Shown here one piece after another: positions 2,452 to 47,516 of a stretch of 64,000 nucleotides of DNA. Under the pieces are notes generated by a model. The model did no database searches. It was not told the origin of the DNA and saw only the letters and a program-made list of their open reading frames with translations. The stretch spans positions 1 through 64,000 of the forward strand of contig JAGBKI010000066.1 in assembly GCA_017933995.1 (NCBI GenBank), in the 5' to 3' direction. Within the stretch, counting starts at the first letter, position 1. Every line of letters starts with the position of its first letter. Both the position numbers and the translations under genes were made by a program. The DNA is from Bacteroidaceae bacterium. Lineage in GTDB: Bacteria; Bacteroidota; Bacteroidia; Bacteroidales; Bacteroidaceae.

Positions 2452-3567
2452 TCAGAGCGCGGCCTTGATGGCGGCGAGGCAGGTGTCGGCGTGGGCGGTG
2501 GTGGCGGTGAGGGCGGGGAGAAGGCGCACGGTGTGCTGTCCCGCGCCGCCGGTGAAGACGTGGTGGTCGAAGACGAGGCGGCGGCGCACGTCGCTGGCGC
2601 TGCCGTCGACGTCGAAGCCAATCATCAGGCCGCGTCCGCGCACGTTGTGCACGCCGGGGATTTCAGGCAGGTGCTCCAGCAGGTAGCGGCCCGTGGCGGC
2701 GGCGTTGGCCACGAGGTTCTCGTCGTCGATTACCTCCAGCACGCTGAGGGCTGCGGCGCAGGCGAGGTGGTTGCCGCCGAAAGTGGTGCCGAGCATACCC
2801 GGCCACGCCTCGAAGTGCGGCGCGATGAGCACGCCGCCCACGGGGAAACCGCATCCCATGCCTTTAGCCACGGTGATAAGGTCGGGGCTGATGCCCGCGT
2901 GCTGGTGGGCGAAGAAGCGGCCGGTGCGCCCGTATCCGCTCTGCACCTCGTCGAGGATGAGGCAGGTGCCGGTGGCCTGCGTCAGCACGCGCAGTTCGCG
3001 CAGGAAGGCGTCGTCGGGCACCTGTATGCCCGCCACGCCCTGTATGCCCTCGACGATGGCGGCGCAGTACTGGCCCGTGGCAAGTTCGCGGCGTGCGGCC
3101 TCGATGTCGCCCAACGGCACGAACGTCACCTTGTCGGTGCGGTTGAAGGGGGCGTTGATGCGCGGGTTGTCGGTGATTTCCACGGCTCCGCTGGTGCGCC
3201 CGTGGAACGCGCCGCCGAAGGCCAGCACGCGCTCGCGCCCCGTGTGGAACGAGGCCACCTTGAGGGCGTTCTCGTTGGCCTCGGCCCCGCTGTTTACGAG
3301 GAAGAGGCGGTAGCCGTCGCAGCCGCTGACCTGCCGCAGTTTGTCGGCCAGCCGCTGTTGCAGGGAGTTCTCGACGCTGTTGGAGTAGAACCCGAGGCGC
3401 GCCACTTGTTCGCTGACGGCGCGGACGTAGCGCGGGTGGGCGTGGCCGATGCTGATGACGGCGTGGCCGCCGTAGAAGTCGAGGTAGCGCGTACCGTCGG
3501 CGGTGAAGACGTAGTTGCCCTCGCCGCGCACGGGCTCGATGGGGTAGAGGGAGTAGACGGGGAACAT
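2452..3567 (-). CDS. argD: N-acetyl/succinylornithine aminotransferase
   Basis: A PLP-dependent class III aminotransferase that converts N-acylglutamate semialdehyde to N-acylornithine. The 371-residue frame shows the class features: VNSGAEANENALK (cofactor phosphate region), FGGAFHGRT, EGIQGVAG, LDEVQSGYGRTG and ITVAKGMGCGFPVGG, where Lys235 should form the Schiff base. Length is slightly short of the usual 375-400 but no core motif is missing. The start MFPVYSLYPIEPVRGEGNYV matches the usual family N-terminus. It lies between argC and the nuclease gene in the minus-strand arginine unit. A TTTATTGTCTAATG-type repeat fills most of the 79-base gap to argC. Confidence 0.94.
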   Translation of the reverse strand: MFPVYSLYPIEPVRGEGNYVFTADGTRYLDFYGGHAVISIGHAHPRYVRAVSEQVARLGFYSNSVENSLQQRLADKLRQVSGCDGYRLFLVNSGAEANENALKVASFHTGRERVLAFGGAFHGRTSGAVEITDNPRINAPFNRTDKVTFVPLGDIEAARRELATGQYCAAIVEGIQGVAGIQVPDDAFLRELRVLTQATGTCLILDEVQSGYGRTGRFFAHQHAGISPDLITVAKGMGCGFPVGGVLIAPHFEAWPGMLGTTFGGNHLACAAALSVLEVIDDENLVANAAATGRYLLEHLPEIPGVHNVRGRGLMIGFDVDGSASDVRRRLVFDHHVFTGGAGQHTVRLLPALTATTAHADTCLAAIKAAL

Positions 3568-3646: not shown

Positions 3647-4606
3647 TCAGAACGCGCTTCCTTTGAGCCTCAGCCCGCTGCGCTCGTCGAGGCCGAAGAG
3701 GAGGTTGAGGTTCTGCACGGCCTGTCCGCTGGCGCCCTTGAGGAGGTTGTCGATGCAGCTCACGACGTGGACCTTGCCCCGGTGGGCCTCGACGGAGAGG
3801 ACGCACTTGTTGGTGTTCACGGCCTGCTTGAGGTTGACGGGGCGGCGCGAGACGACGGTGAAGGGCGCGTCGGCGTAGTAGTCCTCGTAGAGCGCGAGGG
3901 CGTCGGCCTCGGACAGCGCGCAGTCGGTGTAGACGCTGGCCAGGATGCCGCGCGCGAAGTCGCCGCGCATCGGCACGAAGGTGACGCGCGGCGGCGTCTG
4001 TTGCACGAGGCCGAGGTTGCGCGTAATCTCGATGAGGTGCTGGTGCTCGAAGGGTTTGTAGACGCTGAGGTTGTCGGCGCGCCAGCTGAAGTGGGTCGTG
4101 GCGCCGGGTTTCACGCCCGCGCCGGTTGAGCCGGTGAGGGCGGTGACGTGCACCTCGTTTTGCAGCAGTCCCTTTGAGGCGAGCGGCAGCAGGGCGAGCT
4201 GTATGGCCGTGGCGAAGCAGCCGGGGTTGGCCACGAGGCGCGCCTGGCGTATGCGGTCGCGCTGCCATTCGGGCAGGCCGTAGACGTAGCCGTCGGCCTC
4301 GTCGCGGTAGTCCTGCGCCAGGTCGACGACGCGCAGGCTGGCCGGGCGTTGGTGTTCCGCCCAGAATTGCTTACTTTTGCCGTGCCCCATACAGAGGAAC
4401 AGCACGTCGACGCCGCCCAGGTCGGCCTCCGCGCTGAAGCGCAGCGGGGTCTCGCCGATGAGGTTCTCGTGCACGTCGCTGACGGGAAGCCCGGCTTGCG
4501 ACGTGCTGTGGACGAAGGCCACCTCGACGCCGGGGTGCTGGAGCAGGAGGCGCAGCAGTTCGCCCGCCGTGTAGCCCGCGCCGCCTATGATGCCCGCGCG
4601 TATCAT
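3647..4606 (-). CDS. argC: N-acetyl-gamma-glutamyl-phosphate reductase
   Basis: An NADPH-dependent reductase that turns N-acylglutamyl phosphate into the semialdehyde used by ArgD. The 319-residue protein starts MIRAGIIGGAGYTAGELLRL (Rossmann loop) and carries the active-site motif ANPGCFATA with Cys130. It also has GSTGAGVKP and a late histidine-bearing segment, VTFVPMRGDFARG. The open frame runs much further upstream, but that part overlaps argG and is only a GC-rich shadow. The ATG at 4606 overlaps the argG stop as ATGA, so translational coupling is likely. Confidence 0.95.
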   Translation of the reverse strand: MIRAGIIGGAGYTAGELLRLLLQHPGVEVAFVHSTSQAGLPVSDVHENLIGETPLRFSAEADLGGVDVLFLCMGHGKSKQFWAEHQRPASLRVVDLAQDYRDEADGYVYGLPEWQRDRIRQARLVANPGCFATAIQLALLPLASKGLLQNEVHVTALTGSTGAGVKPGATTHFSWRADNLSVYKPFEHQHLIEITRNLGLVQQTPPRVTFVPMRGDFARGILASVYTDCALSEADALALYEDYYADAPFTVVSRRPVNLKQAVNTNKCVLSVEAHRGKVHVVSCIDNLLKGASGQAVQNLNLLFGLDERSGLRLKGSAF

Positions 4607-44149: not shown

Positions 44150-44371
44150 TGTTGTGTTTGCGGCGGTCGCAGGCGTCTCGCCTGCGACCGCCGCGAAACG
44201 TAACAAAAGTTTGCCATAGCCCTCGTCGCAGGCCAGTTGGAGCGCAGGCGTGTTACCGGCGCGAAACGTAACATAAGAACGGCCTGAAAGGCCAACAGCG
44301 ATCAGCCCAGGGCAGCGCCCTGGGGAAACGGCACACACAATAACCCGCCCTGTAAGGGCAAAAGCGTTAAA
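44150..44371. repeat. Palindrome block on the left of the MmeI-like gene
   Basis: GCGGTCGCAGGCGTCTCGCC then TGCGACCGC (44163-44191), GCGAAACGTAACAAAAGTTT (44192-) and CAGTTGGAGCGCAGGCGTG (about 44232-44252) belong to the family at 47338-47516. The half copy GGCCTGAAAGGCC, CCCAGGGCAGCGCCCTGGG (44283-44324) and GCCCTGTAAGGGCAAAAGC (to 44369) belongs to the family at 18250-18443. The MmeI-like GTG follows directly. Confidence 0.7.
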
Positions 44372-44378
44372 ACCTCCC

Positions 44379-47300
44379 GTGAAAAACCCCGTCCTTGACT
44401 TCATCGCCCGCTGGCAAGATAAAGGCTACGAGAAAGGCGAAACCCAGCAGTTCTGGATTGACCTCCTCGCCACCCTTTTCAATGTCGAAAAGCCCGAACA
44501 ATGGTTCACCTTCGAGCAGCACGTCCCCTCCGTCGGCTTCATCGACGCGCGCATACCCCGCACCCGCGTACTCATCGAGCAGAAAGGCGCGGACAAGGAC
44601 CTGCGCAAGCCCGCCCCGCAGAGCGACGGCACGCTCCTCACCCCGTTCCTACAAGCCAAGCGCTACGCCGACTGGCTGCCCACCTCCGAGCGCCCCCGCT
44701 GGATCGTCGTCTGCAACTTCCACGAGTTCCTTATATATAATATGGAGACGCCCCAGGCCGAGCCCGAAAGCGTCCTACTCAAAGACCTCGCCAAGGAGCA
44801 CTACCGCCTCGCCTTTCTCGTCAAGGAGGAGGCCGACCACCTCTCCCGCGAACTGGAAGTCTCTATGCGCGCCGGGGAAATCATCGGCCAGATCCACGAC
44901 GCACTCTTGGAGCAGTACCGACTCGGCGGCGGCGTGGAAAACGCCCGCGCCCTCAACATCCTCTGCACCCGCCTCGTCTTCTGCCTATACGCCGAGGACG
45001 CAGACATCTTCAAGAAAGACCAACTCCACGCTTACCTAAAAGCCCGCGAAACACGCGAGTGGAGGCGCGCGCTTTTAGACCTCTTCCAAACCCTCAACAC
45101 CCCGCAGGACGCCCGCGACCCGTATCTCGAAGAAGACCTCGCCGCCTTCCCCTACGTCAATGGCGGCCTCTTCAAGGAAACTATCCCCGTCCCCCAGTTC
45201 ACCCCCGCCCTCCGCCAACTCATCCTGCAAAACGCCTCGCTCGACTTCGACTGGTCCGAAATCTCACCCACCATCTTCGGCGCCGTCTTCGAGAGCACAC
45301 TCAACCCCGCCACACGGCGCAGCGGCGGCATGCACTACACCAGCATAGAGAACATACACAAGGTCATCGACCCGCTCTTCCTCGACAGCCTCAAAGACGA
45401 GTTCAACGCCATTAAAGCCGAACCCGCCGCCAAGAAGCGCGAACGCCTTTTGGCGGACTTCCAGACCAAACTCGCAGGATTAACTTTCCTCGACCCCGCC
45501 TGCGGCTCCGGCAACTTCCTCACCGAGACCTACCTCTCGTTGCGCCGCCTGGAGAACGAAGTGATCAAAGCCCGCACACAAGGCCAGTCGTTCCTCGGCT
45601 TTGAGGAGACGAACCCGGTTAAGGTGAGCATCCGCCAGTTCCGCGGCATCGAGGTGAACGACTTTGCCGTGACCGTCGCCACCACCGCGCTGTGGATATC
45701 GGAGGCGCAGACGCTGCGCGAGACCGAGGCCATCGTGCGCCGCGACATCGACTTCCTGCCCCTCAAGTCCCACGCCGGCATCGCCGAGGGCAACGCCCTC
45801 GCGCTCGAATGGCCAGCCGCCGATTATATAATAGGCAACCCGCCGTTCATCGGGGCGCGCGTGATGTCAGCGGCGCAGAAGGCCGACATGCTCAGCGTAT
45901 TCGGCAAGAAGTGGAAGAACCTCGGCAATATGGACTACGTCTGCGCGTGGTACAAGCGTGCTGCCGAGCAACTCGCCGCCGCGCCCCGCACCCGCGCCGC
46001 CTTCGTCTCCACCAACTCCATCACGCAGGGCGAGCAGGTGGCCTTGCTGTGGAAACCCCTTGTGGAGCAGTACGGCGTGCAGATTGACTTCGCCCACCGC
46101 ACTTTCCGCTGGGACAGCGAGGCGTCGCAGAAGGCGCACGTGCACTGTGTGATTGTCGGGTTTAGCTCGTCCGCTGTTTCGTCCGCATCCGGGACGCAGG
46201 GAGTTGGGAGCGCGGGCGGCCTCGCCCGCACCAACGCAGATGCCGCGCAGTGCGCCCGCACCAACGCAGCACCCGCGCAGTGCTCCCGCATAGGAGAAGT
46301 TACTTTAAACGCTTCTGCGGGCGAGGCCGCCCGCGCTCCCAGCATGCAGCGCACCGGACGCGGACGGGACAACAAGCGCATCTTCCTCCCCGACGGCACG
46401 GCCATTGCCGCCGCCCACATCAACGCCTACTTGATGGACGCGCCCGAAGTTTTCATTGAGAGCCGCAAGAAGCCGCTCGCAGACGTGCCGGAGATGGGCA
46501 TCGGCAACAAGCCCATTGACGGCGGCCACTACCTCTTCACCACTGAGGAAAAGGAAGCCTTCGTGAAGCGCGAACCTGCTGCCGAGCAATACTTCCGACC
46601 GTGGTACGGGGCGCAGGAGTTCCTCCACAACAGCCCGCGCTGGTGTCTGTGGCTCGGCGACTGTACGTCCGCACAACTGCACGCCATGCCCCGCTGCCTG
46701 GAGCGCGTGCGTGCCGTGCGCGAGTACCGCCTGGCCAGTCCCAGCGAGGGCACGCGACGCCTTGCAGACACGCCCACACGTTTCCATGTGGAGAATATGC
46801 CCGCCTCTGGCCATTACCTCCTTGTCCCCCGCGTTTCCTCCGAACGCCGCCCCTACGTCCCCATCGGCTTTATGGACACCGGTACCATTGCCAGCGACGC
46901 AGTGCAAATCATCCCCTCCGCCACGCTCTCCCACTTCGCCGTTCTCACCTCCTCCGTACACATGGCCTGGATGCGCGCCGTTTGCGGACGCCTCAAAAGT
47001 GATTACCGCTACTCCGCATCCGTCGTATACAACAACTTCCCCTGGCCCGGCGGGATGGCGTCCGCGTCCGAAGCGCAGCAGGCTGGGAGCGCGGGCGGCC
47101 TCGCCCGCACCGCCGAAGACACCGCCGCCCTCGAACGCTGCGCGCAAAACATCCTCGATGCCCGCGCCCTTTACCCCGACTCCTCGCTGGCCGACCTCTA
47201 CGACCCGCTCACCATGCCCGCCGAACTGCGCAAGGCCCACCGCGACAACGACCGCGAGGTGCTCCGCCTCTACGGCCTCCCCGCCGACGCCACCGACGAG

Positions 47301-47381
47301 CAAATCGTAGCCAAGTTGTTCACGATGTACGCCGACCAGTTGGAGCGCAGGCGTCCCGCCTGCGACCATTGCAAAACGTAA
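44379..47381 (+). CDS. MmeI-like type IIG/IIL restriction-modification fusion protein with in-frame palindromic inserts
   Basis: A single polypeptide of 1000 residues with nuclease, methyltransferase and target-recognition parts. The N-terminal nuclease core has FIDARIPRTRVLIEQKGADK (Asp and ExK as in MmeI), then a helical spacer. The adenine methyltransferase has motif I LTFLDPACGSGNFLTETYLS and motif IV YIIGNPPFIGARV. The recognition part starts after AHVHCVIVGFS and continues with KRIFLPDGTAIAAAHINAYL and APEVFIESRKKPL, and the C-terminal part has YNNFPWP and ALYPDSSLADLYDPLTMP. About 60 residues (near 595-655, encoded 46161-46350) and about 25 residues (near 895-920) are low-complexity GSAGGLARTN-type peptide made by inserted palindromes. 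The last 14 codons and the stop lie in a flanking repeat. The start is GTG. Activity may survive, as the inserts fall between conserved blocks. Confidence 0.88.
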   Translation: MKNPVLDFIARWQDKGYEKGETQQFWIDLLATLFNVEKPEQWFTFEQHVPSVGFIDARIPRTRVLIEQKGADKDLRKPAPQSDGTLLTPFLQAKRYADWLPTSERPRWIVVCNFHEFLIYNMETPQAEPESVLLKDLAKEHYRLAFLVKEEADHLSRELEVSMRAGEIIGQIHDALLEQYRLGGGVENARALNILCTRLVFCLYAEDADIFKKDQLHAYLKARETREWRRALLDLFQTLNTPQDARDPYLEEDLAAFPYVNGGLFKETIPVPQFTPALRQLILQNASLDFDWSEISPTIFGAVFESTLNPATRRSGGMHYTSIENIHKVIDPLFLDSLKDEFNAIKAEPAAKKRERLLADFQTKLAGLTFLDPACGSGNFLTETYLSLRRLENEVIKARTQGQSFLGFEETNPVKVSIRQFRGIEVNDFAVTVATTALWISEAQTLRETEAIVRRDIDFLPLKSHAGIAEGNALALEWPAADYIIGNPPFIGARVMSAAQKADMLSVFGKKWKNLGNMDYVCAWYKRAAEQLAAAPRTRAAFVSTNSITQGEQVALLWKPLVEQYGVQIDFAHRTFRWDSEASQKAHVHCVIVGFSSSAVSSASGTQGVGSAGGLARTNADAAQCARTNAAPAQCSRIGEVTLNASAGEAARAPSMQRTGRGRDNKRIFLPDGTAIAAAHINAYLMDAPEVFIESRKKPLADVPEMGIGNKPIDGGHYLFTTEEKEAFVKREPAAEQYFRPWYGAQEFLHNSPRWCLWLGDCTSAQLHAMPRCLERVRAVREYRLASPSEGTRRLADTPTRFHVENMPASGHYLLVPRVSSERRPYVPIGFMDTGTIASDAVQIIPSATLSHFAVLTSSVHMAWMRAVCGRLKSDYRYSASVVYNNFPWPGGMASASEAQQAGSAGGLARTAEDTAALERCAQNILDARALYPDSSLADLYDPLTMPAELRKAHRDNDREVLRLYGLPADATDEQIVAKLFTMYADQLERRRPACDHCKT
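44731..44747 (+). repeat. AT-rich motif inside the MmeI-like gene
   Basis: TTATATATAATATGGAG encodes LIYNME and is preceded by AGTTCC, as at 25154 and 29711. Confidence 0.5.
46161..46345. repeat. Intragenic palindromic insert with 26-bp inverted repeat
   Basis: A perfect 26-bp inverted repeat has its left arm at 46205-46230 (TGGGAGCGCGGGCGGCCTCG and CCCGCA) and its complement at 46316-46341. Between them are two 30-bp direct repeats (46231-46260, 46261-46290; CCAACGCAG ... CCCGCA) and a 25-base spacer. The whole insert keeps the reading frame. Confidence 0.85.
47057..47112 (+). repeat. Intragenic palindromic insert, third copy of the arm
   Basis: The same 26-mer recurs exactly at 47084-47109. 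It is preceded by GCGTCCGCGTCCGAAGCGCA, which resembles the sequence outside the arms of the 46161-46345 insert. It is in frame and encodes ASEAQQAGSAGGLART. Confidence 0.8.
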
Positions 47382-47516
47382 CTAAAGTTTGGTTTAGCCC
47401 TTGTCGCAGGCGAGACGCCTGCGCTCCAACTGGCGTGCGACCCGCGCGAAACGTAACTAAAGTTTGGCACAGCCCTCGTCGCAGGCGGGACACCTGCGCT
47501 CCAACTGGCGCAGCCA
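47338..47516. repeat. Palindrome block on the right of the MmeI-like gene
   Basis: Three units of GTTGGAGCGCAGGCG / CGCCTGCGAC palindromes alternate with GCGAAACGTAACTAAAGTTT. The first unit (47338-47385) contains the last codons and TAA stop of the MmeI-like gene. It is the same family as 44163-44260. Confidence 0.75.

Follow-up and report, generated by a model that had tools for sequence, protein, structure and literature searches.

An in-frame palindromic insert in an MmeI-type restriction-modification gene of a Bacteroidaceae genome is very probably a REPIN, a pair of inverted REPs, belonging to a REP/RAYT mobile system and having landed in the linker between the MTase and the target recognition domain (TRD). 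We put at about even the chances of a wider reading, in which a clade of RAYTs forms in-frame guest domains of anti-phage enzymes in several phyla: intein-like, non-splicing, catalytically intact, under purifying selection, with addictive mobile defence genes as their vehicle and with REP-driven remodelling of the domains around them. The argument is built on the anatomy of the insert, the empty sites in homologues, the recurrence of the embedding, the list of host genes and the intact RAYT motifs, all of which are established below.

A REPIN in the MTase/TRD linker of a type IIL gene

The window, a stretch of 64,000 nucleotides, contains a gene whose 1000 codons (44379-47381) are open throughout and in which all five MmeI Pfam domains are matched. 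Its product carries nuclease (N-terminal), spacer, MTase, TRD and C domains on one chain, the arrangement of type IIL enzymes. PADLOC matched it as a type IIG REase-MTase with 1084 bits, and its sole PDB relative at E 0.001 is MmeI (5hr4, E 6.9e-192). The MTase ends at residue 598 and the TRD starts at 688, with the insert in between. The features of the locus are as follows.

44169..44185, no strand assigned: type B REP palindrome upstream of the gene
44379..47381, forward strand: MmeI-type (type IIL) restriction-modification gene, 1000 codons, with MmeI_N, helicase spacer, MTase, TRD and C domain
46175..46371, no strand assigned: in-frame REPIN in the MTase/TRD linker; two inverted REPs around an 85-nt spacer, adding about 63 residues over empty sites
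46205..46230, forward strand: REP 1; TGGGAGC tag plus 7-bp stem, 4-nt loop
46223..46282, forward strand: pair of 30-bp direct repeats within the REPIN spacer (46223-46252 and 46253-46282), 90% alike and in another order in paralogue C47
46316..46341, reverse strand: REP 2; inverted, the exact complement of REP 1
47060..47109, forward strand: third in-frame REP, in the TRD/C linker; inverted in paralogue C10b at the same junction and absent from PDB 5hr4
47343..47363, forward strand: type B REP overlapping the 3' end of the gene and encoding part of the C-terminal tail LERRRPACDHCKT
47406..47501, reverse strand: two further type B REPs just downstream of the gene (47406-47426; 47481-47501, the latter with one mismatch)

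An earlier note on this DNA had described a 26-bp inverted repeat, two 30-bp direct repeats and an in-frame addition of about 60 residues. The inverted repeat is indeed exact and its arms extend to 56 nt (46175-46230 / 46316-46371) with 82% complementarity; the direct repeats are present, and the addition comes to about 63 residues when measured against the short junctions of homologues. The insert was therefore correctly described, but the REPs at 47060-47109 and 47343-47363 in the same gene had been missed. Folded as a single strand, the REPIN reaches -72.2 kcal/mol (z = -7.8), a value equalled by none of 200 shuffles, so the palindrome is not a product of chance. The type B REPs around the gene (44169-44185, 47343-47501) have in common a conserved spacer resembling CGAAACGTAACTAAAGTTTGG; the repeated unit is therefore longer than the palindrome.

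Most MmeI homologues lack the insert, as the earlier note had expected. MmeI relatives are present in 51 of 301 genomes of the family, and the proteins of the returned loci were aligned with the copies from the window's own genome. In the window gene the junction from VHCVIVGFS to the FLPDG-type motif is 85 residues long. Of the 33 other aligned proteins, 28 have one of 21-29 residues; they are the own-genome paralogue C10b (L009) and 27 of 29 homologues fetched from other genomes. Two of the remaining five (L012, L045) hold an in-frame RAYT at the junction, two (L011, L047) end short of it, and paralogue C10a (L008) begins at a contig end inside the same REPIN and hence carries the insert. 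The MTase/TRD linker of MmeI in PDB 5hr4 is likewise short and empty. The same segment at the same site in homologues from unrelated genomes had been named as a refuting finding. Inserts at this site do exist elsewhere, in C10a and, bearing a RAYT, in C47, in G198 of the same genus (also L081) and in another Bacteroidales record, L121; given the short junctions of 28 other proteins, the junction reads as a recurrent insertion site and not as an ancestral MmeI segment. In 14 MmeI homologues (L050-L060, L062-L064) we also saw a loop of about 50 residues before motif IV, where G019 and L091 hold a RAYT. The idea that this loop is an old REP remnant was dropped, as no REP peptides could be recognised in it by eye.

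The source genome is a bin of 2.48 Mb in 66 contigs, 84% complete. A genome-wide search with the 18-nt core of the REP, GCGGGCGGCCTCGCCCGC, returned 20 exact copies, and 34 at up to two mismatches compared with 2 for a reversed-pattern control. Fourteen of the exact cores lie in MmeI genes or their contig-end fragments (three on C62, five on C47, two in each of two genes on C10, one on C5 and one on C14). A PBP1A-like protein has two more in its C-terminal tail and a DnaG-type zinc-ribbon protein one; a frame without a Pfam match holds one, and two are upstream of genes, as judged from start codons. The family has the stem-loop (7-bp stem, 4-nt loop), the high copy number and the inverted pairing of REPs and REPINs, and the identical core is found on both sides of the RAYT on C47. 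It departs from their mostly extragenic location: 17 of the 20 exact cores are in Pfam-supported genes or MmeI fragments. The many in-frame copies bear out the earlier suggestion of a spreading repeat that proteins tolerate. Most of the 20 copies may have multiplied along with paralogous MmeI genes and not by separate insertions. Several of them are at contig ends.

Within MmeI genes the core copies occupy three linkers at domain junctions, N/helicase, MTase/TRD and TRD/C. In C10b the MTase/TRD site is empty and the N/helicase site filled, the reverse of the window gene, and an MmeI gene from another species of the same genus (L036, G212) has a REP-like peptide at N/helicase. The type B REP (GCAGGCGTCTCGCCTGC) has 21 matches at up to one mismatch. 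Three of these are in frame within an RNase III protein (L014 1789-3738, forward strand, G000:C52), whose long EKPAEKKQ-repeat tail contains them as VAGETPALQL peptides. A plasmid or phage vehicle was considered and dropped: a search of plasmid DNA with the window REPIN gave no match, and the query P0001 gave weak plasmid matches, of less than 40% identity in the 15 of 23 records listed, and none among phages.

RAYTs inside the reading frames of other genes

Five Y1_Tnp domains are encoded in the source genome, and one of them (C47:25192-25413) is inside a second MmeI gene. The open reading frame there (L012:2436-5255, minus strand, 939 aa, its 5' end cut by the contig) runs through MTase, REPIN, RAYT, REPIN, TRD and C domain with no stop. 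Its RAYT scores 89.9 bits against the NCBIfam model REP_Tyr_transpos (REP-associated tyrosine transposase; cut-off 80), and a profile of four such RAYTs has a single match in the PDB, TnpArep (4er8). With NF047646 (cut-off 80) the RAYTs of C47, G198 and G019 are above the cut-off and that of G184 is below it (65.4). The distance from HUH to the tyrosine is about 58 in the C47 RAYT, compared with a published median of 88 for TnpAREP subclass 2.4, where the motif is YIxNNP. A further RAYT, on C12 of the source genome, stands alone between the members of a perfect 32-nt inverted REP pair. Because RAYTs of the same genome have such REPs at both flanks, we assign the window insert to a REP/RAYT system as its REPIN.

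Loss of a RAYT from the window gene by REPIN-REPIN recombination was rejected as a candidate; the right flank of the insert in the window and in C10a resembles the 5' REPIN of C47. Comparison of these sequences makes it more likely, without proving it, that the REPIN-only state came before the RAYT-bearing state. In G198 (L045) a 39-nt stretch of host junction is found at 3330-3368 and at 4101-4139, 79% alike, on the two sides of the embedded RAYT. With this duplicated junction at its flanks and no left hairpin, the G198 unit is unexplained by simple REP-RAYT transposition.

Embedding is a minority state. Among 251 genomes of the family there were 91 Y1_Tnp matches, four of them in frames longer than 900 aa: C47, G198, G019 and G184. 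G198, from the same genus, has an MmeI host with the RAYT at the same MTase/TRD junction as C47; G019, from another genus, also has an MmeI host, with the RAYT just before motif IV and in-frame repeats on both sides; and in G184, from the same genus, the RAYT is a different one and its host is BREX-1 PglX (786 bits against an NCBIfam cut-off of 500). The PglX gene (L077 2231-6199, forward strand) also holds, immediately ahead of its NPPY motif, a REP peptide of the same kind, in addition to the embedded RAYT. A phylum-wide Pfam search placed none of the best-scoring hits listed in a frame longer than 296 aa, the weaker-scoring RAYTs of the embedded type being outside its reach.

The genomes of GTDB species were scanned with an alignment of four RAYTs, three of them embedded, which also served for the Bacteroidales sample described below. 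The scan found at least 496 relatives; of the best 80, which were kept, 23 RAYTs lie embedded in frame between two stretches of host sequence, 18 of them in restriction-modification or defence genes. The hosts of the 23 are as follows.

MmeI (n = 5): L081 (the same locus as G198), L082, L091, L100 (the same locus as G019), L121
HmaB (n = 9): L101, L109, L110, L115, L124, L132, L134, L136, L160
HmaA (n = 1): L097 (PADLOC 1645 bits)
Type IIG (n = 2): L083, L099
Type III Mod (n = 1): L108 (PADLOC Mod match on both sides of the RAYT)
SpoU methylase (n = 2): L114, L119
WYL regulator (n = 3): L123, L126, L127

PADLOC matched HmaB over the whole of L132 and L110; in the other seven the part after the RAYT gave 233-1171 bits and the part before it matched DUF1156. 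Six of the nine HmaB RAYTs follow a TFSDL-type motif (model position about 455-462) and three lie near position 200. Within MmeI the RAYT is found before motif IV (L091, L100), at MTase/TRD (C47, L081, L121) or at TRD/C (L082). The three WYL rows, which are Bacteroidales or Bacteroidetes records, have the RAYT between the WYL and WCX domains, the WCX model that follows the RAYT being below its own cut-off in two of the three. In L114 and L119 it is within a SpoU-type RNA methylase and has REP peptides to its left and right.

A second count with the same query drew genomes evenly and blind to hosts. Among 393 Bacteroidales genomes, 28 yielded 32 rows representing 29 RAYT loci, two of which are in the window's own genome. 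Five of the 29 are embedded (four of 27 when the window's genome is left aside), all in restriction-modification or candidate defence genes: C47 in MmeI, L161, L162 and L164 in type IIG genes, and L165 in a PLD-SNF2 helicase, a PADLOC candidate at 139 bits in which the 207 residues after the RAYT are covered by no model. In this sample the frames examined were the seven others of at least 375 aa. The one-sided cases L163 (HsdR; the RAYT is followed by just 52 codons) and L166 (DapF, C-terminal) were not counted. Nor were L167 (42 codons before the RAYT), L084 (C-terminal fusion only), L125 and L135 (no host domain), L092 (a run of N in the upstream frame), L141 (10 stops; left out of the tree) and L085 (a deletion derivative, given an MmeI label in the tree). 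The RAYT motif filter found no RAYT frame in the 516-aa frame of G026 (L073) or the 370-aa frame of G157 (L074).

The total is 29 embedded RAYTs, the 23 together with C47, G184, L161, L162, L164 and L165. Restriction-modification or anti-phage genes (MmeI, type IIG, type III Mod, BREX PglX, Hma, PLD-helicase) are the hosts of 24, and five are in non-defence genes (two SpoU methylases, three WYL regulators); the apparent bias towards defence hosts is one of raw counts. By their record titles the 29 come from about eight phyla, some of the bins appearing to be misassigned, for example L082; nearly all of the sequences are metagenome bins.

REP-like hairpins (stem of at least 7, loop of 3-4, within 300 bp of the RAYT) are found on both sides of 27 of the 29 embedded RAYTs, whereas in 3305 control pairs taken from these loci the count is 22; the left hairpin is missing in L081 and L161. 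Over 30 RAYT loci, with both flanks of each hairpin scored, the 5' tag was GGAG in 51 of 237 flanks and GTAG and GTGG in one each, so that these hairpins have a variant tag as their commonest one in place of the canonical GTAG/GTGG. According to the available text of PMC8266576, the REP tetranucleotide is most often, and not always, GTAG. HUH and YxxNP-type motifs, the signature of RAYT/TnpAREP proteins, are present in all 82 RAYTs of our tree. The tree requires 14 changes between the embedded and the stand-alone state, with five for MmeI and five for HmaB. Being a quick tree, it leaves 30 forks open, and its starred branches alone force two (alone), two (MmeI) and one (HmaB).

Among pairs of RAYTs embedded at the same site, dN/dS is about 0.07 for L114/L119 (SpoU), about 0.08 for L123/L127 (WYL) and about 0.13 for L123/L126 (WYL); it is about 0.07 for the RAYTs of L082/L085, an MmeI gene and a deletion derivative. 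The RAYTs of C47/G198 (MmeI) have pN 0.20 and pS 0.74 (saturated), and the MTases of their hosts a dN/dS of 0.36. In these pairs, therefore, selection has kept the RAYT as a protein, over and above keeping its frame open; where the hosts are defence genes, the evidence is the two MmeI comparisons, the same-site pairs being from SpoU and WYL hosts.

Possible rearrangements at REPs (REARRANGEMENT)

L082 and L085 have nearly identical RAYTs, and in L082 the RAYT is at TRD/C. In L085 (3424-5800) MmeI_N is followed by a REP array, the RAYT, a second REP array and then MmeI_C in another frame, the spacer, MTase and TRD being gone. From its layout, L085 looks like an internal deletion bounded by REPs.

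The MmeI genes on C62 and C47 form a mosaic at the nucleotide level: 94% identity over the first part of the MTase, 65% just after motif IV and 77% over the rest of the MTase. It falls to 45% in the TRD core and is back at 96% in the TRD/C linker, which bears a REP. An exchange of TRDs via REPs is a possible reading of this pattern. The breakpoint itself does not coincide with a REP, because the divergence starts at motif IV, upstream of the REPIN.

Alternative explanations and relation to known systems

Domestication is one alternative to mobile guests: the defence enzyme would have recruited the RAYT as an HUH nuclease domain and gained from it an activity on single-stranded DNA, with the REPs as leftover substrate sites. 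The motifs intact in 82 of 82 RAYTs, the purifying selection in the same-site pairs (SpoU and WYL hosts), the predominance of defence genes among the hosts and the single site shared by six of nine HmaB RAYTs with titles from several phyla (three being at another) would all suit a fusion of this kind. We nevertheless consider it unlikely, since the RAYT occupies three different places within MmeI, the best tree contains no single MmeI or HmaB RAYT clade (starred branches force two changes for MmeI and one for HmaB), the junction is short in 28 of 33 aligned MmeI homologues and the same linkers also hold REP-only insertions. It is more doubtful still that the REPs are kept as homology arms for the exchange of target recognition domains among MmeI paralogues, with the RAYT incidental. 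REPs at the N/helicase, MTase/TRD and TRD/C junctions, the absence from L085 of everything between two REP sites, and the high identity of C62 and C47 in the first MTase part (94%) and the TRD/C linker (96%) against 45% in the TRD core are in favour of such a role; but these two genes diverge upstream of the REPIN (to 65% past motif IV and 77% in the later portion of the MTase), TRD divergence between conserved flanks arises also without repeats, no case of reciprocal exchange was seen, and RAYT embedding in HmaB, Mod, PglX and SpoU genes would be left unexplained.

The earlier note had taken the Rickettsia palindromic elements as the nearest analogue, which would make the insert an element without its own transposase. 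The insert is palindromic and in frame, and the accessible text of PMC3733652 places RPE-4 and RPE-6 of R. conorii among intragenic REPs; the same text states that the CGTC repeats, which include those elements, are not associated with transposase genes. Here the same repeats flank RAYTs, with identical copies on both sides of the RAYT at the C47 locus of the same genome, so that the analogy has given way to a REP/REPIN and an element of the Rickettsia type is very improbable. An artefact of assembly or binning is hardly credible. In its favour are the contig-end position of several copies and the 84% completeness of the bin; against it, the window copy lies well inside its contig, which is 64 kb long or more, unrelated assemblies contain equivalent fusions, one of them on a 2.19-Mb contig (L110), and the frames are open throughout. 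A frame error in the assembly, raised beforehand as a possible objection, is likewise unlikely with the same arrangement repeated in independent contigs and species.

We therefore return to the proposal that RAYTs are mobile in-frame guests. The RAYT would handle REP hairpins as single-stranded DNA and insert them at many places; the available text of PMC8266576 records single-strand mobility from the biochemistry of other TnpAREPs. Insertions would persist if they fell in frame in loops or linkers of defence enzymes, a persistence that hairpins without stop codons in the frames used, together with expression supplied by the host, could account for. Defence genes that move horizontally or are addictive could then provide the guest with both a vehicle and protection, and the repeated REPs would offer homology for domain rearrangement, of which there is one apparent internal deletion. 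Relaxed constraint, horizontal transfer, addiction and a useful HUH domain are candidate reasons for the choice of defence hosts.

REPs are named for their extragenic location, and the usual view of RAYTs is one of domesticated genes passed on vertically. Their repeated embedding in the frames of defence genes suggests a different lifestyle for RAYTs, offers a reason for their patchy spread and connects transposon biology with the evolution of restriction enzymes. Inteins and homing endonucleases provide a familiar case of a DNA-processing guest in frame within a host enzyme. In contrast to inteins, no splicing domain was found in our family scans, the guest seems to stay in the protein, and the hosts are mostly defence genes. 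With REP/REPIN-RAYT systems (REPtrons) the elements described here share inverted REP pairs, stem-loops, a 5' tag, many copies and a RAYT with HUH and tyrosine motifs; they differ in their mostly intragenic, in-frame copies, in their mainly GGAG tag and in the presence of whole RAYT units inside host frames. The likeness to Rickettsia palindromic elements, drawn from their description and not from RPE sequence, is that proteins tolerate in-frame palindromes in both.

Intragenic REPs are known. PMC3733652, in its accessible text, reports them in frame, single or as dimers, in functional genes of Opitutus terrae, Rickettsia conorii and others, many of them replication and repair genes; its main text contains neither 'restriction' nor words starting with 'methyl', and no embedded transposase is mentioned in the sections consulted. 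For whole REP-RAYT units in frame in defence genes we found no description: the literature consulted, including the available text of PMC3733652, PMC6006769, PMC3116915 and PMC8266576 and with subscription papers and bioRxiv preprints mostly outside its scope, gives no account of RAYTs so nested. In the portions of PMC6006769 at hand, REPs occur in frame within the tnpAREP genes of subclass 2.4 in Bacteroidetes and other phyla, so that there the REPs are inside tnpAREP whereas here tnpAREP is inside another gene. The same portions contain a warning for annotation: in this survey, at least, a few transposase proteins of unexpected length were discarded, being taken for gene fusions or errors of annotation.
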